Of a stretch of 35,100 bases of DNA, positions 709-35,100 are shown one piece after another. The notes beneath the pieces are model-generated. The model searched no databases, had not been told where the DNA came from, and saw only the letters and a list, made by a program, of their open reading frames with translations. Source of the stretch: a virus; IMG/VR virus record IMGVR_UViG_3300032116_000701, positions 1-35,100 of that record. One strand, 5' to 3'. The translations under genes were made by a program, and so were the position numbers. Numbering within the stretch: the stretch's first letter is position 1; each line of letters begins with the position of its first letter.

Positions 709-3285
709 ATGGCAAAAGATGCAGGATTATTTGGTAAGCAACTTGTAGAACAGGAACAAAAATTACAAGCAGAAAAAGAAAAAACAGCAAAAGCAATAGA
801 AAATATTACTAATGCTGAAAGGAACAGGTATGTATCTGCGGAACTTAAACAAAAAGCAATAACTGCTCTAACAGAAAAGCAAGCAAGAACTGAAAAAGAA
901 CTGATAGCTAATCAAACTAGACAGGCAAATATAAGAATACAAAATTTAAAATCTTTAGGACAGCAAGAAGCATCTCTAAAAAGTTTAAGTGGTATCTATG
1001 ATGGATTAAAAGAAATAGATAGAGAAAGACTAACACTCCAACAAAGTATGGCAGAGTCTGACCCTAAAAGAGTAGAAGCTTTTAATAAAATAGCAGGATT
1101 AAATAGAGATTTAGCACAATTAAGTTCAGAAGATACTATACAAAGAGAAATAATACTTGAACGTATTAAAGCTACCGAAACTTCGATGGGTGCAATGTCA
1201 GCCGAAGAACAGGCAGTATTAGATAAATTAAAAGAAGGTACAACTTACGCAAATCAAATGTCTTATATGACTGAAGAGCAAAAGGCTCAATTAGAAGCTT
1301 CAGTCAAAGCATATGAAGGTATAAAGAAAACACTTGGTGGTATATTAGGAACAGCAGGATTGTTATTTAGTGGATGGAGAGGATTTGCTAGAGTAACTTT
1401 ATTAGGAGCGGGTAAAGCACTTACAGAGTTAGGAAAAACTACAAGAGAATTAGGTGGTTTCTTAGGTGGGGCAACAGTATCAGCTACAGCTTTAGGTGCT
1501 GTATTTAAAGATGCAACAGGCACAGCGAAATCATTATCATCTGAATTTGGGGGATTAAATGATATTTCATTTAAAAATCAATTGAATACAAACCTTATGG
1601 CTACTAATATGGGTATTAGTGGTGATGAGGCTGCAAAATTAACTGGTAACCTTGCTCGTTTGAATGGTAATAGTATTGAAACCGCACAAAATTTAGCTGA
1701 AGGTACAAAAGAATTAGCAAAACAAAATGGTTTAGTTCCAGCCGATATAATGAAAGATATGGCTGGTTCAGCTGAAGCATTTGCTTTGTTTGGAAAGGAT
1801 GGTGGAAAAAATATTGCACAAGCTGCTGTACAAGCTGCTAAGATGGGTACTAGTCTTAAAACTATGACCGGTATAGCAGATAATCTATTAGATTTTGAAA
1901 ATTCTATTACAAAAGAATTAGAATTAGGAGCTATGCTTGGTAAAAATATCAATTTAGATAAAGCTAGACAATTAGCTTATTCTGGTGATATTGCAGGAGC
2001 AACGCAAGAAACATTAAGAGCATTGGGTGGAGTTGAAGAATTCAATAAAATGGATTACTTCCAAAAGAAAGCAACTGCTGATTTGATGGGAGTATCTGTT
2101 GATGAACTTCAAAAAATGGTAACTCAACAGGAAAAAGCAGCAACAATTAGTGGTCAGATAGAAGGTGGATTCAATACAATGACTGAAACACTAAGCGCTC
2201 TAACTACTGGTCCTTTAGGTGGGTTTGTTAGTGGCTTGAGTGGTGCTATCGGAACTTCAAAAGAAATAGCAGGTAACTTTAAAGATGCTGGTGGATTTCT
2301 AAAAGATATGGGTGGTAAAATAAAATCCATGTTTGGTGGTAAAAAGCCAGAATTGCCTGGACAAAGTTCCGTGGGTTCAACTGCACCAAAACCAACAGCA
2401 GCACCACAATCGCAAGCAGGTCCATCGGACCAAGCAAATAAAATGTCTAAAGTTAATGCAAACGCATTAATTAAAGGTGCAGTGGCATTATTAATATTAG
2501 CTGCAGCATTATTTGTAGCAGCAAAAGCATTCCAAGAATTTGCAGAAGTTACTTGGGAATCTGTTGGTATGGGATTAGCTGCATTAGTTGGTTTAGCCGG
2601 TATTGCTTTCTTATTAAGTAAAATACAAGGTGAAATGATTAAGGGAGCATTGGCAGTGGCAATATTGGGATTAGCATTAATTCCTTTTGCATACGCTCTA
2701 AATCTAATGTCAGCTGTTAATGGTGATGGATTGATAGCAGCCGGTATAGCTTTGGTTGCATTTACAGCAGCTGTATTTGGTTTAGGACTTTTAATGATGG
2801 GACCTGCGGCAATCGTATTTGGAGCAGGTATTTTAGCATTAACAGCTTTGGGGGCTGCATTGGTTGTATTTGGAGCAGGATTATTAATGGTTGGAAATGG
2901 AATGTCAGCACTGACTGGTGCATTACCTTCTATGGTTGAACAAATAGCAGCATTATCTACTATCAACTTCTTACCAATATTTGGATTAGCTGGAGCATTA
3001 ATGGCGTTATCAGTTGCATTAGCAGCTGTGGCTATCTCTGGTATGTTAGCATTACCTGCTTTATTGGCATTGGGATTAGTAGCTGGTGGTGCCGCGGCAT
3101 TGATGGGTGGTGGTGATGAAGGTGGTGAATCTGCAAAAATGGATGAATTGATTACTGAAATCAAAGCATTAAGAGGTGATTTATTAGCAGGTAAAATAGC
3201 TGTAAATATGGATGGTCAGAAAGTAACGTCTGGTGTTGGAAAAATTGTTTCAAGAACTAGCTCAAATTCATACGCTAAAACTTAA
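709..3285 (+). CDS. Tail tape measure protein
   Basis: At 858 residues, this protein has the architecture of a phage tape measure, which sets tail length and fills the tail tube before DNA ejection. Residues 1-210 are charged and coiled-coil-like (rich in E, K, Q, A). A first hydrophobic stretch follows at about 205-265. The middle (300-500) is helical, and residues 555-590 are a P/Q/S-rich linker. The C-terminal third (590-830) holds a long series of Ala/Leu/Gly-rich hydrophobic segments, as expected for parts that interact with the host membrane. It sits between the tail-assembly genes and the baseplate hub genes, the usual position. It is longer than T4 gp29 (about 590 residues). The large antisense ORF opposite the hydrophobic region is a composition shadow. 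Confidence 0.85.
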   Translation: MAKDAGLFGKQLVEQEQKLQAEKEKTAKAIENITNAERNRYVSAELKQKAITALTEKQARTEKELIANQTRQANIRIQNLKSLGQQEASLKSLSGIYDGLKEIDRERLTLQQSMAESDPKRVEAFNKIAGLNRDLAQLSSEDTIQREIILERIKATETSMGAMSAEEQAVLDKLKEGTTYANQMSYMTEEQKAQLEASVKAYEGIKKTLGGILGTAGLLFSGWRGFARVTLLGAGKALTELGKTTRELGGFLGGATVSATALGAVFKDATGTAKSLSSEFGGLNDISFKNQLNTNLMATNMGISGDEAAKLTGNLARLNGNSIETAQNLAEGTKELAKQNGLVPADIMKDMAGSAEAFALFGKDGGKNIAQAAVQAAKMGTSLKTMTGIADNLLDFENSITKELELGAMLGKNINLDKARQLAYSGDIAGATQETLRALGGVEEFNKMDYFQKKATADLMGVSVDELQKMVTQQEKAATISGQIEGGFNTMTETLSALTTGPLGGFVSGLSGAIGTSKEIAGNFKDAGGFLKDMGGKIKSMFGGKKPELPGQSSVGSTAPKPTAAPQSQAGPSDQANKMSKVNANALIKGAVALLILAAALFVAAKAFQEFAEVTWESVGMGLAALVGLAGIAFLLSKIQGEMIKGALAVAILGLALIPFAYALNLMSAVNGDGLIAAGIALVAFTAAVFGLGLLMMGPAAIVFGAGILALTALGAALVVFGAGLLMVGNGMSALTGALPSMVEQIAALSTINFLPIFGLAGALMALSVALAAVAISGMLALPALLALGLVAGGAAALMGGGDEGGESAKMDELITEIKALRGDLLAGKIAVNMDGQKVTSGVGKIVSRTSSNSYAKT

Positions 3286-3287
3286 AG

Positions 3288-6029
3288 ATGGGAAGAACAT
3301 TAGAAGAATTATTTAAGACACAACGTTTAGCAGACGGGCAAACTGCTCAACAAAAATACGAAATTCGTGATAGTAAGAAAAATCCTATTACGCCAGGTAA
3401 TTCTTTACTTGAACTATCATTTAAAGGAGCGTCTGGAATACGAAAAGGTTCTTCTAGTAACAATAATAGATTAAAAGAAACATTTGTAGAAAGTGAAATA
3501 AGAGGATTGAGAATGATACATAATTTATCAGCTCCTGTTGTATATGGAACTGATATTATTCGCTTTCAAAAAAAATCAACTAAGTTGGTTGATACAATGA
3601 AAGATTCAATAAATCCTGGTCAATCTAGCGGAATTATAGGTAATTTATATAATAAGATAGAAAACTTTGGATTAAGAACACTATCTAAAATAGGTGTTGT
3701 GTTTCCTGACCATTTAATACCAACTAAAATTTCTTTAAATGATAAATTTAAATCTGGTAAAGAACCAGATACAATGACCACTTTAGCAGAAATTAAAAAA
3801 GATGGTAAAGGAACAATATCTGGTCAAATTATAAAAAATGTAAAAGGTACTCCAAAACAAATATTAAATGGTGTTGTTGGTACAAGTGTAGATTTATTAA
3901 AAAAAGAAGTAAGAAAAAAACTATTTGGTGCACCAAAGCAAGGAGCACAAAATTTAGCAAAAAAGAATGAATACGAAACTCAGTACGATAGTTTTGCAAG
4001 ATACACATCTACAATTGATGCATATAGTGAGGATATAGCAAAAAGAAATGATTTATCGAGTTTACAACTTGAAAAAATAAGATATAAAAAGAAAACCGAA
4101 AGAGAAACAATTGCTAAAATAGCAGAAAGTGCACCAAAATATGAACCAAAGGGGTTACCATCCACTACAAACTTAGGTGGAAAACTAAATTTGGATGTAA
4201 GTAGATTTAACATAAAAGGTAAAGTATCAACTGTAAAAGAAGGTGTAACATCTCAATTAACATCTGCTAGAAAAGAAGGACAGCAATTTTTATCATCTGG
4301 TAAATTTAAAGTAGGCGATGTAAAACCCAACGCTGAATCAGACTTAGCACCAGATCCAATTATAAGATATTCTGAAACTGTAGATGAGCAAGCTGACGAT
4401 GTTAAATTAAGGAATGATTTATCTTCAAAATTAAATACTTTAATAGAAAGTAAAAAAGAATTTTCCAAAGATAAAAAAGAAACAGAATCTGCAATTCCTG
4501 GTTCACCAAAAAAAGGTGATTTAAGTTCTACTGGAAAATTATTGGGAGAATCACAAAATCCTTTTGATAAAAAAAGTAAAGAAAAATTAAAAGAAGGTAG
4601 AAAAGAAGCACAGCAAAATGCAGAAAATAAAGATGAAACTGCAATAAAAGCAAACGTAATTAATAGATACGATAACGAAATAAAATACTCTGGTACAGTA
4701 GATGCAACGCAAGATGATATAACTTTAAGAAATGATACATCGGCAAAGTTAGAACTATTAATGGAGGCAAGAAAGGAATTATCCGAAGGTGATAGAAAAG
4801 GATTAGCACCTTTGACTAGAGAAAATGTTTCAAAAAATCAATATTCAAGATTTAAAAATACTTTAAAAGAAAGTAATAGAGCAGTATCTTTAAAAAATAG
4901 ATATGGTATAGAAAGTAAAGATAAATTAGATTTTGTAAATGAAAAAACACCATATGCAGGTGAATCATTAAAATTAAAAGATGGAACTATATTAGATGAT
5001 TATGATTTTGTAACTTTAAAATTTAGGTCAAAAGCAACAGGGCAATCTGTAAATTTCAGAGCAACAGTAACTGGTATAAGTGAAACTGTAAGTCCGAGTT
5101 GGGATTCTGGAAAATTTATTGGTAATCCATTTAATTATTACACTTATACTGGTATCGAAAGAAGCGTAAGTTTTAATTTTAAAGTTTATTCAACAACTCC
5201 TTTACAGCACGTAGCAGCATGGCAAAGAATAAACTTCCTAACAGGTTTAGCTTATCCACAAGGTTATAGTGGTGCATATGCAATCCCACCATTCGTAACG
5301 TTTACTTTAGGCAACTTATATAAAAGCAAAAATTGTTTTATAGAATCATTAAGTTATACAGTAGATGAAAATGGTGGTTGGGAAATTGGTTCTGTTGGTG
5401 TTGGTGAAGATGGTGTTGTTGGTATAGAGGGAGCTACAATTAGTATGAAGGATTATAAACTTCCAATAATTATTGATGTGAACGTAACACTTAAATTTGT
5501 TGAATCAGTTGGAACAAGTCAGGGAGGTCAATACTATGGATTTGAAAAACTTCCTAAAGCACAGCAAAATACTGGTGATTCAAATGCAACTGCACAAAAA
5601 ATAGATGATTCAAATAATAATGAGAGTTTACAAACTTCAAGCGATGATGCTGAAGTTCCTACACTCAAAAAGAAATTACCTGCAAAAAAATTAGAACCAG
5701 CTGGACAAACTAATACACAAACAAACGAACCAGCTAGCGTAAAAGAAAATGAATCCACAATAGAAAAACCAAAATTACCTTCATATAAAGTAAATGTATT
5801 TACAGATGGTGATGGTATTAAAGGTCAAGTATTTGCAGATGGTGAAATGATTGATGAGGTTAGTTATTATTCTGGGTTTAGTCGAACATTCACAGACCAA
5901 ACTGGAAAAACTACAACAACTGTAGGGGAAGCTGCTGTAAAAGAAAATTTAATATATAAATTAACTAATATGGGATACTATTCTCCAACAAAAGGTAAGT
6001 TTTATCCTGAAAGTCCAAACGTAAGTTAA
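3288..6029 (+). CDS. Baseplate tail-tube-initiator-like protein (gp48/gp54-type domain) with three internal repeats
   Basis: This 913-residue protein starts two bases after the tape measure stop codon. The N-terminal 540 residues are lysine-rich and low in hydrophobic content. They contain three copies of a motif of the form Y(S/T)xTVDAxxxDIxxRNDxSSKLE, beginning near residues 239, 361 and 467. Residues about 575-735 form a compact region (SPSWDSGKFIGNP..., then TYTGIERSVSFNFKVYS and PPFVTFTLGNLYKS, ending IIIDVNVTLKFVE) that reads like the tube-like domain of the gp48/gp54 tube initiators and LysM-associated baseplate proteins. A Ser/Thr/Lys-rich linker and a small C-terminal domain (835-913) follow. 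In the baseplate it would join hub to tube. The placement between tape measure and gp53-like wedge supports this; the family assignment is from pattern recall. Confidence 0.6.
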   Translation: MGRTLEELFKTQRLADGQTAQQKYEIRDSKKNPITPGNSLLELSFKGASGIRKGSSSNNNRLKETFVESEIRGLRMIHNLSAPVVYGTDIIRFQKKSTKLVDTMKDSINPGQSSGIIGNLYNKIENFGLRTLSKIGVVFPDHLIPTKISLNDKFKSGKEPDTMTTLAEIKKDGKGTISGQIIKNVKGTPKQILNGVVGTSVDLLKKEVRKKLFGAPKQGAQNLAKKNEYETQYDSFARYTSTIDAYSEDIAKRNDLSSLQLEKIRYKKKTERETIAKIAESAPKYEPKGLPSTTNLGGKLNLDVSRFNIKGKVSTVKEGVTSQLTSARKEGQQFLSSGKFKVGDVKPNAESDLAPDPIIRYSETVDEQADDVKLRNDLSSKLNTLIESKKEFSKDKKETESAIPGSPKKGDLSSTGKLLGESQNPFDKKSKEKLKEGRKEAQQNAENKDETAIKANVINRYDNEIKYSGTVDATQDDITLRNDTSAKLELLMEARKELSEGDRKGLAPLTRENVSKNQYSRFKNTLKESNRAVSLKNRYGIESKDKLDFVNEKTPYAGESLKLKDGTILDDYDFVTLKFRSKATGQSVNFRATVTGISETVSPSWDSGKFIGNPFNYYTYTGIERSVSFNFKVYSTTPLQHVAAWQRINFLTGLAYPQGYSGAYAIPPFVTFTLGNLYKSKNCFIESLSYTVDENGGWEIGSVGVGEDGVVGIEGATISMKDYKLPIIIDVNVTLKFVESVGTSQGGQYYGFEKLPKAQQNTGDSNATAQKIDDSNNNESLQTSSDDAEVPTLKKKLPAKKLEPAGQTNTQTNEPASVKENESTIEKPKLPSYKVNVFTDGDGIKGQVFADGEMIDEVSYYSGFSRTFTDQTGKTTTTVGEAAVKENLIYKLTNMGYYSPTKGKFYPESPNVS

Positions 6030-6031
6030 TT

Positions 6032-6319
6032 ATGGCAAGATATACAAATAACAAAACTAAAAAAACATTTGATGGCAGAGAAGTATTTAAACCAAAAATA
6101 TTTCCAAATATCCCATTAAGTGATACGGATGTGTATGTAATGACTGAAACTGGAGATAGATTGGATACATTAGCTTATCAATACTATGAAGATGCTTCCC
6201 TTTGGTGGATAATTGCAGCAGCAAACAATATACACGATGCACCAATGGGATTAAAAGATGGTACAATATTAAGAATACCATTAAACTATATTCAAATAGA
6301 AAATAATTTTAGTCAATAA
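6032..6319 (+). CDS. Baseplate wedge protein, gp53-like with LysM-type fold
   Basis: This 95-residue protein starts two bases after the preceding stop. Residues 33-75 (VYVMTETGDRLDTLAYQYY, then LWWIIAAANN) match the pattern 'D..RLD.LA..YY.D..LWW.IA..N', typical of gp53-like and LysM-like small baseplate wedge proteins. The C-terminus (KDGTILRIPLNY) is the usual LysM end, 'G..LrIP'. In T4, gp53 links wedges around the hub. Its size and its place among hub and tube-initiator genes fit. No catalytic residues are expected in this family. Confidence 0.8.
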   Translation: MARYTNNKTKKTFDGREVFKPKIFPNIPLSDTDVYVMTETGDRLDTLAYQYYEDASLWWIIAAANNIHDAPMGLKDGTILRIPLNYIQIENNFSQ

Positions 6320-8609: not shown

Positions 8610-8981
8610 ATGATTGACATAAACAGATTTAAAAAAGTTGGAAATCCTGATTTAAAGTTTGATTCGGTCAAAATAAAAACACATGTCATTACACCAACGC
8701 CAATAGATTATAAAAAAGGATATATAACAAGATACTTTATTCAAAAAGCAAATGATACAGAATCACAAATATATGAAGTTGATTTTATTGGTTTTAGTAA
8801 AGTAATTGATAATCCATTTTTTGCACAAGCAACTCTTAATTGGAGAGTTAAAGGAAGTGATGATGAAATAAAAAACTCCAATTATAAAGCGGTACAATTA
8901 GTAATGCCAAAAATACCAAAATTAAATTTGTACCTACCAAATCTTCTTCAATTTAAAGAAAAGAAAGATTTGGAAATCTAA
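8610..8981 (+). CDS. Small unknown protein at the end of the baseplate operon
   Basis: This is a 123-residue protein with start ATG 8610, eleven bases after the hub gene. It looks beta-rich with no signal peptide or membrane segment. It includes ITPTPIDYKKGYITRYFIQK and DFIGFSKVIDNPFFAQATLN. Being last in the baseplate operon suggests a structural or assembly role, but I do not recognise the family. Its stop codon at 8979-8981 overlaps the spacer of the tmRNA promoter, whose TTG box (8970-8972) is inside the coding sequence. Confidence 0.75.
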   Translation: MIDINRFKKVGNPDLKFDSVKIKTHVITPTPIDYKKGYITRYFIQKANDTESQIYEVDFIGFSKVIDNPFFAQATLNWRVKGSDDEIKNSNYKAVQLVMPKIPKLNLYLPNLLQFKEKKDLEI

Positions 8982-9000
8982 TTATTTTTTCTTATATTTG
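8970..9000 (+). promoter_or_regulatory. Bacteroidota-type promoter of the tmRNA gene
   Basis: TTG at 8970-8972 and TATATTTG at 8993-9000 are separated by 20 bases, the TTG-N19-TAnnTTTG form of Bacteroidota housekeeping promoters. The -7 box ends 13 bases before the tmRNA 5' end. Confidence 0.8.
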
Positions 9001-9013
9001 TATTTATTGATAT

Positions 9014-9391
9014 GGGGATGCTTTGGAATTGATTGCGATGAGAGGCATAGTATCACACGTAGTGGGAAGGTTCTCAAACCACTTTAATAAAGGAATCAAA
9101 CAATAACTGACGTAGAATTATCTACTTGGACCTTCGAAGATGCTATGGCATTCGTAGGTGCTGATTACGCTGTAGCAGCCTAATCACCTCTCGCATCACT
9201 CGTGAGATTTTAAAAAGAAGTGAAACCTAAGTTTACCGAAACTATAAATCGGTTGGTGGTAGCGCTGAACTAACCATTCGGCCCCAATTATTTTGGAAGG
9301 TGAATAAGATTAAACCTTATCCTAAACGTGTGAAAAGCTGGTATTATGGTTACTTCGTAAGACACCGGTTCGAGTCCGGTCATCTCCACCA
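9014..9391 (+). ncRNA. ssrA: Transfer-messenger RNA (tmRNA)
   Basis: The 5' end GGGGATG pairs with CATCTCC at 9381-9387 to form a 7-bp acceptor stem, followed by A73 and an encoded CCA (9388-9391). The third pair is G.U, the alanine identity signal expected of tmRNA. A T-arm CCGGTTCGAGTCCGG lies at 9365-9379. A tag reading frame ends GADYAVAA-stop (stop at 9181-9183), matching the C-terminal '..YALAA' degron consensus except for V in place of L. The AATAACT before the first tag codons matches the usual resume-site context, which would give a tag of about 24 residues, longer than most bacterial tags. tmRNA with SmpB frees stalled ribosomes and marks the peptides for ClpXP. About 378 nt is a normal size. 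It has its own promoter and terminator. Confidence 0.93.
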
Positions 9392-25242: not shown

Positions 25243-25423
25243 AGAAAGAGAGGAGCTGTATTACTTTGAAGGTAGTAGGATAGTGTTTACACCACAATAC
25301 CACATAGAGCGTGGTTCTTGTTGTGGAAGTGGATGTAGACATTGTCCTTACGAACCAAAGCATGAAGCTGGAAATATAAACATAGAAGAACAATATAAAC
25401 ATTTAAAAAATGATAACAGTTAA
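25229..25423 (+). CDS. Small cysteine-rich protein, DUF5522-like
   Basis: I choose GTG 25229 (about 64 residues, MKLNKEREELYYFEGSRIVF...), which overlaps the RNR stop by 14 bases; GTG codons further upstream would lie deeper in the RNR gene. The centre reads YHIERGSCCGSGCRHCPYEP. 'RG.CCGsGCrHCPY' is the hallmark of DUF5522-type proteins, small likely metal-binding proteins common in Bacteroidota. Four cysteines and a histidine within ten residues suggest zinc or Fe-S binding. The function is unknown. It links the RNR and thioredoxin genes in one overlapping unit, so a redox or metal role near RNR is plausible but inferred. Confidence 0.75.
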   Translation: MKLNKEREELYYFEGSRIVFTPQYHIERGSCCGSGCRHCPYEPKHEAGNINIEEQYKHLKNDNS

Positions 25424-25676
25424 AAAATTTGGAGCAGAATGGTGTGGACCATGCAGAATGCTAAAACCTGTTTTGGAACAATTAAAAGAAGAATTTAATG
25501 GTAAGGCAACTTTCATTGAATATGATGTAGATAATTCTCCAAATGAAGCAGAGCAATACAATGTAACTTCTATTCCATTGGTTATTGTTGAAAAAGATGG
25601 AGTTGTTGTTGAAAGATTTCAAGGATTAACTTCAAAGGTAGCATATAAAAATGCTATTAATGAAGCAATAGGATAA
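25410..25676 (+). CDS. Thioredoxin
   Basis: This 88-residue protein has the active-site WCGPC at residues 11-15, the cis-proline region VTSIPLVIV near 51-59, and a complete short thioredoxin fold. It is a little shorter than E. coli thioredoxin (about 108). It overlaps the DUF5522-like gene by 14 bases and follows the class II RNR, whose C-terminal cysteine pair it would reduce. Phage thioredoxins beside RNR genes are common, and the context makes this role likely. Confidence 0.93.
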   Translation: MITVKKFGAEWCGPCRMLKPVLEQLKEEFNGKATFIEYDVDNSPNEAEQYNVTSIPLVIVEKDGVVVERFQGLTSKVAYKNAINEAIG

Positions 25677-25696: not shown

Positions 25697-25900
25697 ATGG
25701 CTATTTTAAGAGGACAGACTCACCCAGCTGCAAAGTTGACAGATGAGCAAGTTCTAAACATCAGAAGATTATGGAGTATGGGTCACCGAAACGTAAAGGT
25801 GATAGCAAGAAACAATAAGGTTTCCCCAGCCAATGTAATGAAGATAATTCAACGTAAAACTTGGAATCATCTAAATGAATTTTGGTCTGGTAGTATATGA
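25697..25900 (+). CDS. Small helix-turn-helix DNA-binding protein
   Basis: This 67-residue protein is AKLTDEQVLNIRRLWSMGHR, then NVKVIARNNKVSPANVMKII and QRKTWNHL. It follows the pattern 'aKLT.eqV..IR.l...G.....iA...gVs...V..I..gktW.hl'. This HTH is seen alone or at the end of HNH homing endonucleases in phages, but no HNH motif is present here, so it is not an endonuclease. It overlaps the first Mom-like gene by the ATGA at 25897-25900, which suggests translational coupling. It could be a regulator of the Mom-like genes or a remnant of a homing element. Confidence 0.75.
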   Translation: MAILRGQTHPAAKLTDEQVLNIRRLWSMGHRNVKVIARNNKVSPANVMKIIQRKTWNHLNEFWSGSI

Positions 25901-26670
25901 AAGTAGAAGGAAAACAATATTGTGACATATCCAAATTCTCAATAAGAGAAATCAATAAAAATATTGCAAAGGATATCATTGTCAATAACCATTATAGTGG
26001 GATATGGACAAAGGTATCCTATGCCATAGGCTTATTTTATTTATCGGATGAAGAACATTCTTTCTTTAGTGGTGTAAACGAACAATTAGTTGGGGTTGCT
26101 TGTTATGGTGACCCGGTTGGTAGAAACGCAGGCGCATCAATATCTGAATTACTTCCGAGAGATGGAGTGTTAGAATTGACACGCCTGTTTGTTTTTGATG
26201 GGTATGGTAGTAACATTGAAAGTTGGTTTGTGGGTAGAACATTTGATTGGTTGAGAGAAAACGCACCACACATCAAAGCCCTAATATCTTATTCAGACCC
26301 AAACGCTGGACACTTAGGAACGGTATATCAAGCTACTAATTGGATATATCAGGGTAACAAAATCCGATGGTCAGATAGTTGGAGTTTTAAGTGGAGTGAG
26401 GATGATGAATGGCATCATAGTAGGACATCTTATGTGAAATACGGAACGAATGACCCGAAAATAATTCAGACAATGGTTACAAGCCCTTTCTGGATTAAAA
26501 GAGAACCCCGTAAGCACCGATATGTGTATATTCTAACCAAAGATAAAAAGGAGAAAAAAGCACTCTTAAAATCGCTTAAACATGAGGTATTCCCATATCC
26601 AAAGGTGGAGTTGGATATTATTGATGAAGTTTATAAAATGGACCCGGTAGATTTGGTAGTTTCAAAATAA
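25897..26670 (+). CDS. Mom-like DNA modification protein (GNAT fold), paralog 1
   Basis: This 257-residue protein begins MKVEGKQYCDISKFSIREIN. It contains KDIIVNNHYSGIW (His near 32) and YGDPVGRNAGASI, then ELTRLFVFDGYGSNIESWFV (from 93). After those come ISYSDPNAGHLGTVYQATNW (131-150). The order 'HY, (Y)GxPvg, EL.Rl, N..eS, SY.D...GH.G..YqA.nw' is what I recall for the Mom family. Mu Mom converts adenine to N6-carbamoylmethyladenine to block restriction. A second family member of similar size follows at 26939. The C-terminal 60 residues (PRKHRYVYILTKDKKEKKAL) are shared by the pair. The exact modification cannot be read from sequence. Confidence 0.7.
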   Translation: MKVEGKQYCDISKFSIREINKNIAKDIIVNNHYSGIWTKVSYAIGLFYLSDEEHSFFSGVNEQLVGVACYGDPVGRNAGASISELLPRDGVLELTRLFVFDGYGSNIESWFVGRTFDWLRENAPHIKALISYSDPNAGHLGTVYQATNWIYQGNKIRWSDSWSFKWSEDDEWHHSRTSYVKYGTNDPKIIQTMVTSPFWIKREPRKHRYVYILTKDKKEKKALLKSLKHEVFPYPKVELDIIDEVYKMDPVDLVVSK

Positions 26671-26683
26671 TTTCGTATATTTG
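26653..26683 (+). promoter_or_regulatory. Bacteroidota-type promoter inside the Mom-like cluster
   Basis: TTG 26653-26655 lies within the end of the first Mom-like gene; after 20 bases TATATTTG is at 26676-26683. ATG 26698 is 14 bases downstream, so the small gene and the second Mom-like gene can be expressed separately from the first. Confidence 0.75.
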
Positions 26684-26697
26684 TATAAATTTATTAT

Positions 26698-26949
26698 ATG
26701 GGAAGGTGGCCTGAAAAACCAATTGATAAACCTACGAAGTTTGAAATAACATATAAAGATGATGATGGAGTTGAATCCACTTGGAAGTATGATTTGAAGA
26801 AGTTTCCAAATGGACCAATTGAAGTGAGTAATAAGTTTCCAGCAGGTTATGATAAGATGATGAAGAAGCAAATGAAAGATGCTAGGTTGGAAAAGAAGCA
26901 ATCGGTATTAGAAAAGGCTATGGCCAATAAAAAGAAAAATGAAAGTTGA
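26698..26949 (+). CDS. Small unknown protein between the two Mom-like genes
   Basis: This 83-residue protein, MGRWPEKPIDKPTKFEITYK..., has a short beta-like N-terminal half and a lysine-rich helical C-terminal half (MMKKQMKDARLEKKQSVLEK). No signal peptide, membrane segment or known motif is visible. It has its own early promoter and overlaps the second Mom-like gene by 11 bases, so the two are likely translated together. A partner or regulator of that protein is possible, comparable in position to Com upstream of mom in Mu, though there is no sequence resemblance to Com that I can claim. Confidence 0.7.
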   Translation: MGRWPEKPIDKPTKFEITYKDDDGVESTWKYDLKKFPNGPIEVSNKFPAGYDKMMKKQMKDARLEKKQSVLEKAMANKKKNES

Positions 26950-27739
26950 AGGTAAACAATATTGTGATGTAAGTAAAGTGTATGTAGCACCAATAGCAAA
27001 GAATATCGCTAAAGATATTATTGTTAAGAAACACTACACTCACGCTTGGACTTCTTGCCGTTACGCATTGGGTATTTATTACAAAGCAGAAGATGCTAGT
27101 ACCTTCGATGGTGATAAACTAATTGGTTGTATCATTTATGGATTTCCTGTTGGGGCAAAAGCAGCAACTTCTATTTGTGAAGGATTGACGAAAGATAACG
27201 CATTAGAATTGACAAGATTATATTGTGATGATGGGTATGGTTCTAATATTGAATCATTCGCTATTTCACAATCTTTTAAGTGGTTGAAAGAAAATGATAA
27301 GAATATTAAGTTGTTACTATCTTATGCAGATGCCGGACAAGAACATTTAGGTGGAATATATCAGGCAACAAATTGGATATATCAGGGTATTTCATCTGAT
27401 ATAGCATTGATGCCTAATTGGGGTATTTCATTACAAAAAGAACCATACGATTGGATTCACAGCCGAACTGTATTTTCAATGTGGGGTAGTGGTAACTTAG
27501 ACCATCTTAAAAGAGAAATTGGTAAGCAGGGATATAAAGAGTTTTGGAGAAGAATGGAGCCACCAAAGCACCGATACATTCAGATATTGGCGCAAGATAA
27601 GAAAGAAAAGAAACAATTGATGAAGGCATTAAAGCATGAAATCAAACCCTATCCAAAAAATAGTGTAGATTTTAATACTGAAGTCGTACATCATCTTACT
27701 ACATACGAAGCACCTGAAGGGGCTGCAAATTTTTGGTAA
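26939..27739 (+). CDS. Mom-like DNA modification protein (GNAT fold), paralog 2
   Basis: This 266-residue paralog of the gene at 25897 has the same first residues (MKVEGKQYCD), KDIIVKKHYTHAW, YGFPVGAKAATSI, ELTRLYCDDGYGSNIESFAI (from 90), LSYADAGQEHLGGIYQATNW (127-146) and PPKHRYIQILAQDKKEKKQL. All Mom-type motifs are retained, so both copies look functional. The two differ enough (clear divergence at the N-terminal third and in the 180-210 region) to suggest different substrates rather than a recent copy. Expected function is acyl/carbamoylmethyl-type modification of DNA bases or a related reaction. Whether the two act on different bases, steps or sites cannot be decided here. Confidence 0.7.
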   Translation: MKVEGKQYCDVSKVYVAPIAKNIAKDIIVKKHYTHAWTSCRYALGIYYKAEDASTFDGDKLIGCIIYGFPVGAKAATSICEGLTKDNALELTRLYCDDGYGSNIESFAISQSFKWLKENDKNIKLLLSYADAGQEHLGGIYQATNWIYQGISSDIALMPNWGISLQKEPYDWIHSRTVFSMWGSGNLDHLKREIGKQGYKEFWRRMEPPKHRYIQILAQDKKEKKQLMKALKHEIKPYPKNSVDFNTEVVHHLTTYEAPEGAANFW

Positions 27740-27923: not shown

Positions 27924-29762
27924 ATGTCACAACAATTAGGACAAGTATTAGCTGAATTGGAAATCGCTAAATCAACTCAAGACTTACAAAAGATTGTAAG
28001 CATTCTTCACTTTAATCAAAAAGTTTTATCCAAAAGAGATAGCAAGATAATGGATGTTATCACTTTTGGTATTGTTGAATCCTTAATAAAGTCTGGATTC
28101 ATTTCAAACAAAATGAATAGAGAAGAAGAACTTGATAGTGTTACTTCATATACAAACAAACTTCACCACCTTATCAGATTTGTAGATGGTGTTAGTAGAA
28201 AAGCACACTTACAATTATCTTTTGTTCCAAAGAAAGGACAAAGTTTATTCATATCCGATGATGGTACTATGATGTCTTTGTGTTTTGGTATGTATAGAGA
28301 TGTTAAGAAATTAACAGCAGGTGATATTGATGAAATACTAGATGATATTCAGAACGAATATGAACTTGATGGAACTGAGGTACTCTTTAATTCATTGAGA
28401 GAATGGATTTCTAAATTGGATGAACAGCAAGTTTTACTAAAGTATTCTCTTACGGATTTGCTTAGAGAAACTGGAATGATTGATTATTTTGGTGCAACTA
28501 AAATTAATTATGAAATTAACACTTTCACAATTAAGCAACACATCAAAGACCAGCAAAATGCGAACCTGCAACCTAACCCTTGGATTGCACACAACTTCTA
28601 TAAAGCTCCCATCAAAGCTGAAGAAAGTTATGAAACTTCGTTTTGTGGTGATAGATTACAAAACGAATTGTTTGTAAACGTTCCGGGTGTTGGTTGTGAC
28701 CCTAAAACGCAAGGTGATAGATTGTTTAGAAACTATGCAACTGGTTCTAAGAAAACTGAAAAAGATATTCCGTTTTACACAACGTATGGTGCATTGTTGG
28801 CTACAAACAATTTAGATGATATTTTGGAAAACAACGAAATGTTCAGAAACTACATCAAACATGACCATCCAAAATTTGGAAATTGGTGGTACAAACGTTA
28901 CGCTCAATTGGTGAATGAAGTAACCTACCAAGATATGGTTGCTCATATCGAAAAATTCAGATTAATCCAAGAAGGTGGGTGGGCTGATATTGTTACCACA
29001 ATCAATAGAATTATTAAGAAGAACAACGCTACTTCTTGTAAAGCGTTTTCTGATTTGACTCCTTTTAAGGATGACTTTGGTATGTATGTAGTTTATGTGG
29101 TGTTAGCTTTGCATAAAGTTTATGGAAATGCATATAGTAGAACTGTTTCTACCAACATCAAAAGGATTAAAGAATCCTTAATAAAAAACCTAATTGATAT
29201 TCTTCAGAACGATAATACATTTGACATCTTTGCTGAAGATGGTAATACAAACTGGGATGCTCGTTATGAATCTGTTTGGAAGCCTGCTATAAAGCAGACT
29301 GTAGCAGATATGGGTAAGAAAACAAAATCAGAAAAATCCTTTGATAAGGAAGTACAGCATCAAAAGGATTCAATTCTGAAAATTGTTAGAGATAATAATT
29401 TGGGTAATTCTTGGACATGCTTTTCACATACAAGTGATAAGTTAATTCAGATTAACTTTAATGATTGGAGTAAGACTATGTCTGGGTTACATTGTGTACC
29501 GGTAGACATGGGTGGTACAGCAGAAGATGGTGTTATATTCGGATTAAACGCTGACCAAATGGGTGAATGGAAATACGCTAACCTTAATGATATGTTCACA
29601 AAACCATCGGATTATTGGGAATCATTAGCAAACAGAAACAGCAAAATGCTTGATATTCAAAAGAACGTTTTGACTGATAGTGAAAAAAGACGTGTTACTG
29701 ACTTCATTAGGTTGTGTGATACCATAGTAGCTGAGGGTATTGAGTACCTTTGTAAGAAGTAA
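27924..29762 (+). CDS. Unknown 612-residue early protein
   Basis: This large protein has no family I recognise. It starts MSQQLGQVLAELEIAKSTQD and is mainly alpha-helical in the first 200 residues, with no signal peptide or membrane segment. The middle contains FVNVPGVGCDPKTQGDRLFR and FGNWWYKRYAQLVNEVTY. The C-terminal third has NSWTCFSHTSDKLIQINFND and CVPVDMGGTAEDGVIFGL. No Walker motif, nuclease motif or HTH is evident. It is a single-gene unit: its own promoter with three near-palindromes upstream, and a strong terminator behind. Being between the Mom-like cluster and the polymerase region indicates early expression. Not a T4 rIIA or rIIB that I can recognise. Confidence 0.8.
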   Translation: MSQQLGQVLAELEIAKSTQDLQKIVSILHFNQKVLSKRDSKIMDVITFGIVESLIKSGFISNKMNREEELDSVTSYTNKLHHLIRFVDGVSRKAHLQLSFVPKKGQSLFISDDGTMMSLCFGMYRDVKKLTAGDIDEILDDIQNEYELDGTEVLFNSLREWISKLDEQQVLLKYSLTDLLRETGMIDYFGATKINYEINTFTIKQHIKDQQNANLQPNPWIAHNFYKAPIKAEESYETSFCGDRLQNELFVNVPGVGCDPKTQGDRLFRNYATGSKKTEKDIPFYTTYGALLATNNLDDILENNEMFRNYIKHDHPKFGNWWYKRYAQLVNEVTYQDMVAHIEKFRLIQEGGWADIVTTINRIIKKNNATSCKAFSDLTPFKDDFGMYVVYVVLALHKVYGNAYSRTVSTNIKRIKESLIKNLIDILQNDNTFDIFAEDGNTNWDARYESVWKPAIKQTVADMGKKTKSEKSFDKEVQHQKDSILKIVRDNNLGNSWTCFSHTSDKLIQINFNDWSKTMSGLHCVPVDMGGTAEDGVIFGLNADQMGEWKYANLNDMFTKPSDYWESLANRNSKMLDIQKNVLTDSEKRRVTDFIRLCDTIVAEGIEYLCKK

Positions 29763-29767
29763 AATTT

Positions 29768-29790
29768 ATGGGGAGTATTTCTCCCCATTT
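29768..29790 (+). terminator. Terminator after the 612-residue gene
   Basis: ATGGGGAG (29768-29775) pairs with CTCCCCAT (29781-29788) around TATTT, followed by T-rich sequence. Confidence 0.85.
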
Positions 29791-29793
29791 ATT

Positions 29794-29823
29794 TTGCCGT
29801 ATCAATAAAATTTCGTATATTTG
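29794..29823 (+). promoter_or_regulatory. Bacteroidota-type promoter of the glycosyltransferase/polymerase unit
   Basis: TTG 29794-29796, 19 bases, TATATTTG 29816-29823. The start codon is at 29828, four bases beyond the -7 box, so the message should be leaderless or nearly so, as for the gene at 9450. Confidence 0.8.
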
Positions 29824-29827
29824 TAAA

Positions 29828-30946
29828 ATGAAAGTATTAGTAATTCCGAATTATACAAACTTCGGACAAGAGAAGGACATCAATAGAGATTCATTCCTAT
29901 TGGTGTTCAAATCTTTTCTGGACAACACACAAATCGGTAAGGAGTGGCAGTGGATACTACCTTACCCAGACCTAAATAACCATCCTGGTATTATCAATCA
30001 ATTTGAATATCCAAATGTAACGTTAGTGAAAATGGATGGATTAGATTGCTTTCCACCAAAGATGAGAGTGGATTATCCGCATAAATTCTTTGATAGACTT
30101 ATTGAAAAATATAAAGGTGAATTCAATTTAATTTGGTCACATTTGCCTGAATGGACTAATGAGTTTAAAATCAGCCGTATCTATAATAAAACACAACCTA
30201 TCATTGGTTATTGCCATTGGTGGGAAATAAAAGATAATGGTGCTAGAGATGATAATTCATTTTGGAGAAACATAAAAGGTATGCTTCAAATGAAAGTGTG
30301 TGGTGTGAACTCACAATGGGTTAAAGATTTAGTATTACAAAGAGCATCCGCTGATTTCCAACCACACATTATTGAAAAGCTGGATAAGATTATACAACCT
30401 TGGTATTTGGGATGTGATACAGCAACCCCATCTAAAGGATTCAAACCTAAGACAATTGTATTCAATCATAGAGAAGGTATCTATACAGGTTCAGAATGGT
30501 TCTTTGAAACTATGGATGAACTATGGAAAGAAAGACAAGATTTTGAAGTATGGACATCTCTAAAACAATTGAATAAACCATATACTAAATACATAGGACA
30601 TGCTGATAGAAGTGTGTATATGAATCAGTTGGCTGAGGCACACTTTGGAGTTGGGTGTTTCCAAACATATTCTGCATGGAGTATGAGTACAACTGACGGT
30701 CTAAGTTTGGGTGTACCATATTTATTACCAAATGGGTTATGTTACCCTGAAATGGTTGGTAAAGACTACCCACTTCTTTACAATGGTAAAAAAGAATTTA
30801 AAGAGATGGTGGTTAAGTTATTAGATGGTGAAATAGAAAGACCGGATGTAACTCAAATTGCACAATCTTTATTGTGGGAGAACCAATTGAAAAGTTGGGA
30901 TATAGAAAATAACTTTGTGAATATCGCAAGAAAATCATTTGATTAA
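29828..30946 (+). CDS. Glycosyltransferase, GT-B fold
   Basis: I use ATG 29828, just downstream of the promoter; the in-frame codon at 29768 is inside the terminator. The 372-residue protein starts MKVLVIPNYTNFGQEKD and has a GT4/GT1-type C-terminal domain: TIVFNHREGIYTGSEWF (about 215-231), then AEAHFGVGCFQTYSAWSMST and DGLSLGVPYLLPNG near 280-310. The last of these is the usual nucleotide-sugar 'E..a.G.P' loop, although the acidic residue here is Asp. No membrane segment is visible, so it is cytoplasmic. Its stop shares one base with the DNA polymerase start codon, so the two are co-expressed. That favours DNA (hydroxymethylated base) glycosylation over a surface target, but this is inferred. 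Confidence 0.7.
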   Translation: MKVLVIPNYTNFGQEKDINRDSFLLVFKSFLDNTQIGKEWQWILPYPDLNNHPGIINQFEYPNVTLVKMDGLDCFPPKMRVDYPHKFFDRLIEKYKGEFNLIWSHLPEWTNEFKISRIYNKTQPIIGYCHWWEIKDNGARDDNSFWRNIKGMLQMKVCGVNSQWVKDLVLQRASADFQPHIIEKLDKIIQPWYLGCDTATPSKGFKPKTIVFNHREGIYTGSEWFFETMDELWKERQDFEVWTSLKQLNKPYTKYIGHADRSVYMNQLAEAHFGVGCFQTYSAWSMSTTDGLSLGVPYLLPNGLCYPEMVGKDYPLLYNGKKEFKEMVVKLLDGEIERPDVTQIAQSLLWENQLKSWDIENNFVNIARKSFD

Positions 30947-34228: not shown

Positions 34229-35100
34229 ATGAGCTTTTGGGATACTGAACCACAAAAACCGGTCTTTGACTTTGATACTGAAAAAACAAAGTTAAAAGAA
34301 AATATGGACTATCTAATGACGATGTCTGTACAGGAGCAAACTTTATATAAAAAGTGGGTAGAGTTGCAAGACCCTACAATGATTCAGGCTAAATCCCAAA
34401 TAGCATCTTATTATGATTCTCAATGGAGGCCAACTAATATCAACGATAAGGAGCTAACGATAAAAGAAATTGAAGCGTTAGACCCTTACGTTGAAATCGT
34501 TGAAGACCCCAAAGAAGCTACTAAGTGGTCACAAATTCGTAGAATGATTCATACTATGGATTTTACCGCTAACCCTGGCCGTAATGTTAAGATTAATGTA
34601 AGGGATAGAGTAAGTGGAAAACTATTGGGGCAAATATCTTTAGCATCAGATGTAACCGCATTAGGTGTAAGAGATAACTACATTGGTTGGACTAAAGATG
34701 ATAAGTTTGTAAAAGGTAAATTAAACAATACAACTATTGCTTCTACAATCGTATGTACTCAGCCTTTAGGTTACAACTTTTTAGGTGGTAAGTTAATCGC
34801 TATGATGACTACGGTGCCTGAGGTAAGAGAGTATTGGAAAAAGAAATATGATAATGTACTTATAGCAGTAGGTACAACTTCACTATACGGAATTCATTCC
34901 CAATACAATGGTATTCCACTTTTCAAAACATTAGGTGAATCCGCTGGTAAGATTAGTATTAAGCCGGATGATAAGTATTATGACCCTTGGCATCAATGGT
35001 TAAAAGAAAATCGTGCGGAATGGTACAAAGATAATATTTCAGATGAGAGAGCCCGTAATGGTGCTAATATGGGATATGAAGCTAATGGACCTGTTAGTGG
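34229..35100 (+). CDS. DUF4338/DruA-like protein (3' truncated)
   Basis: ATG 34229 is five bases after the clamp stop, and the frame is open to the window edge (290 residues visible). Residues 115-165 contain GRNVKINVRDRVSGKLLGQI and VRDNYIGWTKDDK. After that come LGYNFLGGKLIAMM and REYWKKKYDNVLIAVGTTSL (from about 200), then YNGIPLFKTLGESAGK. This order, with 'v.v.d..sg.liG.i, RD.yIGW, ...L....W...Y...l....T..ly....Y.g..f..lGe..G', resembles DUF4338 proteins, the DruA component of Druantia defence. The match is partial and from memory. The C-terminus is missing, and the fold may be acetyltransferase-like. Function in phage unknown. Confidence 0.5.
   Translation, partial: MSFWDTEPQKPVFDFDTEKTKLKENMDYLMTMSVQEQTLYKKWVELQDPTMIQAKSQIASYYDSQWRPTNINDKELTIKEIEALDPYVEIVEDPKEATKWSQIRRMIHTMDFTANPGRNVKINVRDRVSGKLLGQISLASDVTALGVRDNYIGWTKDDKFVKGKLNNTTIASTIVCTQPLGYNFLGGKLIAMMTTVPEVREYWKKKYDNVLIAVGTTSLYGIHSQYNGIPLFKTLGESAGKISIKPDDKYYDPWHQWLKENRAEWYKDNISDERARNGANMGYEANGPVS

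Follow-up and report, generated by a model that had tools for sequence, protein, structure and literature searches.

Positions 25697 to 27739 of the window, the whole 35,100-nt stretch of IMG/VR virus record IMGVR_UViG_3300032116_000701 that was analysed, encode two tandem Mom-type proteins, Mom1 and Mom2. They are assigned to this family by sequence profiles and predicted models, retain its catalytic residues, and are conserved as a pair across a group of uncultured phages. The explanation that we consider probable is an anti-restriction cassette with two independent, active Moms that would perform the same chemistry in different sequence contexts.

Gene organization and phage context

The module contains four genes, all on the + strand: a helix-turn-helix (HTH) gene (25697-25900, 67 aa), the Mom1 gene (25897-26670, 257 aa), a small accessory ORF without known family (26698-26949, 83 aa) and the Mom2 gene (26939-27739, 266 aa). 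Coordinates and sizes of the four ORFs given in the first-pass annotation were all confirmed, as were the ATGA overlap between the HTH and Mom1 genes, at 25897-25900, and the overlap of the small gene with the Mom2 gene, which measures 11 nt. The regular 5' neighbour of the module is a thioredoxin gene (25410-25676, + strand; PF00085, E 7e-19), which is present in 75 of 80 related loci and is outside the proposed mechanism.

The Moms are surrounded by T4-like replication genes (ssb, UvsX, exonuclease and helicase), and further neighbours encode a B12-type ribonucleotide reductase, thioredoxin, a family B polymerase and the clamp. According to the polymerase, the closest isolated phage is Microcystis phage Mel-JY01, with 52% identity. 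Mom is neither annotated nor detectable in the 24-kb region around the polymerase of Mel-JY01, and this phage is absent among the Mom matches listed for GenBank phages. A scan with the Mel-JY01 polymerase gave mostly distant phages.

Two other proteins encoded 3' of Mom2 are of note. A 612-aa protein without known family (27924-29762) lies between Mom2 and a glycosyltransferase gene and is found in only two of 80 relatives. A DruA-like protein (34229-35098; PF14236, E 5e-16) is kept near the polymerase group-wide; it was considered as a hidden relative of Mom and rejected, with a profile comparison probability of 0.3%.

Sequence and structural analysis of Mom1 and Mom2

Mom1 and Mom2 match PF25680 with 149.7 bits (E 1.1e-43) and 156.5 bits (E 9.1e-46), respectively, the curated cut-off being 27.1, and both match phrog_1384, a 'Mom-like' DNA modification protein. 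Sequence identity between them is about 50%. The motifs HY, ELTRL, SY(S/A)D...(G/E)HLG and YQATNW, previously noted as shared, are borne out in both proteins. A distinctive C-terminal PKHRY tail had also been ascribed to the pair; PKHRY is found in Mom2, but Mom1 reads RKHRY, and in both the motif sits about 50 residues before the C terminus. Furthermore, KHRY is present in single-copy relatives too and is therefore no marker of the pair.

The check for a GNAT/Mom fold proposed in the first-pass annotation was run against the crystal structure of Mu Mom (PDB: 8bv8), which corresponds to the inactive mutant S124A, and supports the fold for both copies. Predicted models of Mom1 and Mom2, with pLDDT of 86.5 and 88.1, show Mu Mom as the top PDB match, with Z 20.6 over 181 aligned residues at 3.5 A for Mom1 and Z 21.6 over 186 aligned residues at 3.6 A for Mom2, while the next-best GNATs in PDB reach a Z of about 12 with both Moms. 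Foldseek comparison to 8bv8 gave E values of 2e-13 (Mom1) and 9e-14 (Mom2).

By profile alignment, the column of Mu S124, located by reading the printed alignment against the residue numbers (SEQRES index 115 plus 9), is occupied by S109 in Mom1 and S106 in Mom2, a serine conserved at 95% or more in the Mom1 and Mom2 clades. Conserved residues kept in both copies are H32/Y33, E93, D101, N106, E108 and S109, in Mom1 numbering. Across 45 diverse relatives the invariant residues are H32, Y33, G45, G66, E93, D101, N106, E108, D134, G141, Y144, Y151, G153, R208 and Y209, and all family-invariant residues are retained in Mom1 and Mom2. Neither of them gives the impression of a degenerated pseudo-enzyme.

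Sixteen alignment columns separate the Mom1 and Mom2 types at 90% or more, 14 of which fall in residues 34-41 and 160-211 of Mom1, and the central beta4-alpha3 part is common to both. In GNAT proteins, the alpha1-alpha2 region and the strands at the C terminus form the acceptor site, and beta4-alpha3 binds the donor. From this general GNAT knowledge, rather than from a DNA complex, the type-separating residues are presumed to lie on the acceptor side. By analogy, the differences would fit a changed acceptor, that is, the DNA context, with unchanged donor chemistry; acceptor-side divergence could also alter the chemistry or partner contacts instead of sequence choice.

Recurrence and evolution of the Mom pair

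The pair recurs in nearly every IMG/VR relative with room for it, although the IMG/VR records used for comparison may be fragments. Exactly two PF25680 genes were found in 16 of 16 long contigs of up to 245 kb, more contigs with the pair reach 271 kb, and both Moms are present in 204 fetched loci, a count in which loci sharing one contig can count more than once. Given this recurrence across contigs, the pair is not a chance arrangement. Mom1 without Mom2 was never found in this phage group where room existed. Four contigs have a third, divergent Mom copy. Contig L258 shows three Mom genes in tandem (2287-4535) of which the middle one is divergent, a third Mom-like gene lies elsewhere in L249 and L214/L215, and the short contig L093 has three Mom-like genes (268-1564 and 4001-4633), two of them very divergent.

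Among GenBank phages, 285 records match Mom1 and 259 match Mom2, with one place per record, and another query gave 329 places in 328 records. With about one Mom place per record, isolates seldom or never carry Moms in tandem, an arrangement that is common in this uncultured group, and no report of paired Mom genes was found in the open-access literature searched. Most Moms found by a genome scan were distant ones from Bacteroidota and other bacteria.

The phylogeny shows Mom1 and Mom2 as separate clades, each with 100/100 support, and groups Mom2 with the single-copy relatives (support 94/89); Mom1 and Mom2 as one clade were not rejected (AU p 0.14). Purifying selection on both Moms is as strong as on the DNA polymerase, with a median dN/dS of 0.122 for Mom1, 0.124 for Mom2 and 0.104 for polB.

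The HTH gene

The HTH protein matches the C-terminal part of the HNH endonuclease families phrog_20467 (E 1.4e-6) and phrog_6156, and some of its relatives match phrog_517, an HTH DNA binding protein. Only the C-terminal HTH part of the HNH families is matched, and their nuclease domain is not in this gene. The HTH profile gave no match in PDB. The protein has the invariant core G.HP..KLT..Q...IR.L...GHRN... and its gene a dN/dS of 0.11. In nearly all relatives the gene is directly 5' of Mom, with the ATGA overlap in 58 of 84 distinct junctions; the module of Moms and a coupled HTH gene, as first described, is thus real and conserved in relatives with the HTH gene upstream.

Small gene, promoters and host

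The small gene (dN/dS 0.07 over 37 pairs) overlaps Mom2 in the window but is no constant part of the module, being present in 43 of 80 loci. A sister clade shows mom1 and mom2 overlapping directly by 14-17 nt, and in part of the group Mom2 lies 200 nt to more than 2 kb behind Mom1.

A promoter of its own had been claimed for the small gene. The sigma-70 scan, with no more sites than in shuffles, did not sustain this; however, a Bacteroidota-type box, TTTGG-N-TTTCGTATATTTG, is present in the mom1 end (26652-26683, + strand), a candidate promoter whose position would suit expression of the small gene and Mom2. The pattern TTTG...TAnnTTTG has 13 matches in the window versus 3.1 expected (0 of 100 shuffles), while TAnnTTTG with other flanks shows no excess over chance. 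TAnnTTTG follows the mom1 stop in 38 of 78 distinct junctions, which, together with the motif in the window, upholds a separate promoter for the second Mom. Eight strong copies on the + strand, at 8969, 9414, 18334, 18404, 21560, 26652, 29793 and 33463, precede the tmRNA gene, the gene behind it, ssb (two copies), the helicase, the small gene and Mom2, the glycosyltransferase and the clamp. Because the pattern matches the Bacteroidetes promoter consensus TTTG/TAnnTTTG (PMC7366714), it suggests a Bacteroidota host. These promoters contrast with the closest isolated polymerase, which is that of a Microcystis phage. The tmRNA gene is complete (9014-9391; Rfam RF00023, 76.9 bits; ARAGORN tag DVELSTWTFEDAMAFVGADYAVAA), and a phage-type promoter motif at 8969-9000 ends 14 nt 5' of it.

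An exchangeable slot behind the HTH gene

A survey anchored on the HTH gene showed that it is mostly followed by the Mom pair; in four contigs (L319/L336, L337, L357 and L359), tandem PF01555 N6/N4 DNA methyltransferases follow it instead. These number three where the contig is long enough (L319 2251-4633, L357 675-3063 and L359 1885-4273) and run directly into the polymerase gene. The methyltransferase variants occupy two places among the pair-bearing phages in the polB tree, so the swap between Moms and methyltransferases happened twice or spread by recombination. The HTH gene stays when the Moms are replaced, so its product is more likely to regulate the slot than to be a subunit of Mom.

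Mom2 was also found without Mom1. One lineage (L379-L385, also represented by L250/L382) has a single Mom of Mom2 type, which falls within the Mom2 clade in the tree. In L250, a 504-aa protein with a DGQHR motif, an HNH-like tail and no Pfam match is encoded 3' of this gene (4794-6308). In L407 the gene order is HTH, HNH-like gene, PF01555 methyltransferase, small gene and Mom2, and there is only one Mom in the whole 266-kb contig; here, Mom1 is replaced by the methyltransferase and Mom2 is kept. Its presence without Mom1 in these relatives indicates that Mom2 works without Mom1.

Among 11 long pair-bearing contigs, a full-length PF01555 methyltransferase was found in none, although three of the 11 show partial or weak matches; L407 has two PF01555 genes. 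The slot swaps and the lack of full-length PF01555 genes in these contigs suggest that Moms and amino-methyltransferases can stand in for each other functionally. The known targets of both enzyme types are exocyclic amino groups of bases. Several tandem methyltransferases would most simply mean several target specificities, and the tandem Moms may be read likewise.

The linked glycosyltransferase

A member of a GT4/GT-B glycosyltransferase family is encoded downstream (29768-30946, + strand), its true start being probably the ATG at 29828, behind the promoter at 29793-29823. PF13439 and PF00534 are matched by 12 of 26 family members, with values up to 5e-6, and not by the window's own protein; the family profile gave nothing useful against PDB. 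Of 149 Mom-bearing polB loci, 147 contain the glycosyltransferase, which is lacking before polB in the methyltransferase variant and absent from the Mel-JY01 region; L319 has a remote homolog further on. In L306, L312 and L316 it is located apart from the Moms, with both in the contig, and in L078, which has the Mom pair, a gene at 4206-5432 that by eye resembles the DruA-like protein of the window is directly behind Mom2 instead of the glycosyltransferase. The glycosyltransferase types are strongly divergent, with 30-86% identity.

Since the glycosyltransferase co-occurs with the Moms, is lacking before polB along with them in the methyltransferase variant and diverges strongly, it might form one hypermodification pathway with the Mom pair, in which Mom-type groups are then glycosylated and the glycosyltransferase adds a fast-changing outer layer. 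We regard this as doubtful; linkage alone could explain the co-occurrence, because the glycosyltransferase stays next to the polymerase.

Discussion

Our proposal is that this locus of a T4-like phage, which probably infects Bacteroidota, serves as a DNA-modification cassette against restriction. Mom disguises phage DNA from host restriction enzymes, and Mu Mom attaches a methylcarbamoyl-type group to N6 of adenine. Each Mom described here, with its GNAT fold, would attach a Mom-type group to phage DNA, the exact product being presumptive, and the HTH protein, whose gene overlaps the first mom, likely regulates the cassette. We infer that Mom1 and Mom2 share their chemistry and recognise different sequence contexts, by which more sites would be shielded than by one Mom. 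They would act independently, each losable or exchangeable for a DNA amino-methyltransferase: Mom2 alone and Mom1 traded for a methyltransferase favour two independent modifications over an obligate heterodimer or two-step chemistry. Thus, of the two substrates or two steps suggested in the first-pass annotation, the former is favoured, as two target specificities, and the latter disfavoured.

A heteromer of Mom1 and Mom2, with both subunits needed for Mom1 activity and Mom2 perhaps also working as a homomer, is unlikely. Mom1 could depend on Mom2, because it was never seen without Mom2 where there was room, the direct mom1/mom2 overlap in one clade would also fit a complex, and such a paralog pair could arise from a homo-oligomer; a preprint includes the Mom-like PHROG 1384 among families modelled as homo-oligomers (PMC13232217). 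However, Mom2 alone persists in two settings and, in part of the group, it shows a separate promoter motif and a considerable distance to Mom1. One partner of a heteromer often decays, yet the full set of conserved residues is found in both copies.

Less likely still are two Moms of the same specificity that differ in timing or dose via separate promoters. The separate promoter motif that some members of the group have ahead of Mom2 is in line with it, but the clade with overlapping genes looks like one transcription unit and keeps both copies, and the consistent type-specific residues, about 50% divergence and separate clades also argue against it. That the two Moms act one after the other on a single base, or on separate bases, by two-step or different chemistry, is quite improbable: differences near the acceptor side and a co-occurring glycosyltransferase would fit multi-step hypermodification, but Mom2 occurs without Mom1 in two settings, and the exchange of Mom1 only for a DNA methyltransferase, with Mom2 kept, misfits a chain of mutually needed steps. 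Finally, that one or both Moms are GNAT acyltransferases of another substrate, not modifying DNA, is highly improbable, since the fold is common to many acyltransferases but Mu Mom is the clear top match by sequence and fold, and the Moms are exchanged with DNA methyltransferases in the same slot.

Mu Mom, a methylcarbamoylase of the same family (PF25680), resembles the proposed pair of independent Moms in fold and invariant residues, including S124. The layout is also like com-mom, with a small overlapping gene directly upstream of Mom, namely com in Mu and the HTH gene here. Com is a translational activator that Mu needs to express mom. Unlike Mu, with one Mom, this locus has two paralogs, its upstream protein is an HTH protein without cysteines, and its second promoter is of Bacteroidota type. 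The HTH protein is not recognisably Com but could still act like it via the gene coupling. Furthermore, Mu mom is under the control of the C activator (PMC4461284), which was not seen here. The single Mom of Polaribacter phage P12002L and single-copy IMG/VR relatives show 42-45% identity over most of the length and the KHRY motif, but they have one Mom as a rule and no adjoining HTH gene of the window's family. Jumbo phages, large phages too, have Mom domains fused to REase-type nucleases (PMC7824862), in contrast to the two stand-alone tandem enzymes described here. Microbacterium phage BarnCat has an annotated HTH gene directly 5' of Mom with their ends touching (genes 64-63); however, its Mom is single, and its HTH protein has no similarity to the window's evident by eye. 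The tandem PF01555 methyltransferases of close relatives share the slot and the HTH gene, and differ in methylation versus Mom-type modification.

Most work on Mom has concerned phage Mu, with its single enzyme. The widespread phage group described here keeps two adjoining Moms and trades Moms singly for DNA methyltransferases, and this pair of enzymes with the same fold and probably different targets is material for learning how Mom reads DNA. In these phages, one exchangeable slot would supply several ways of disguising DNA, and methylation and Mom-type modification may replace each other there.
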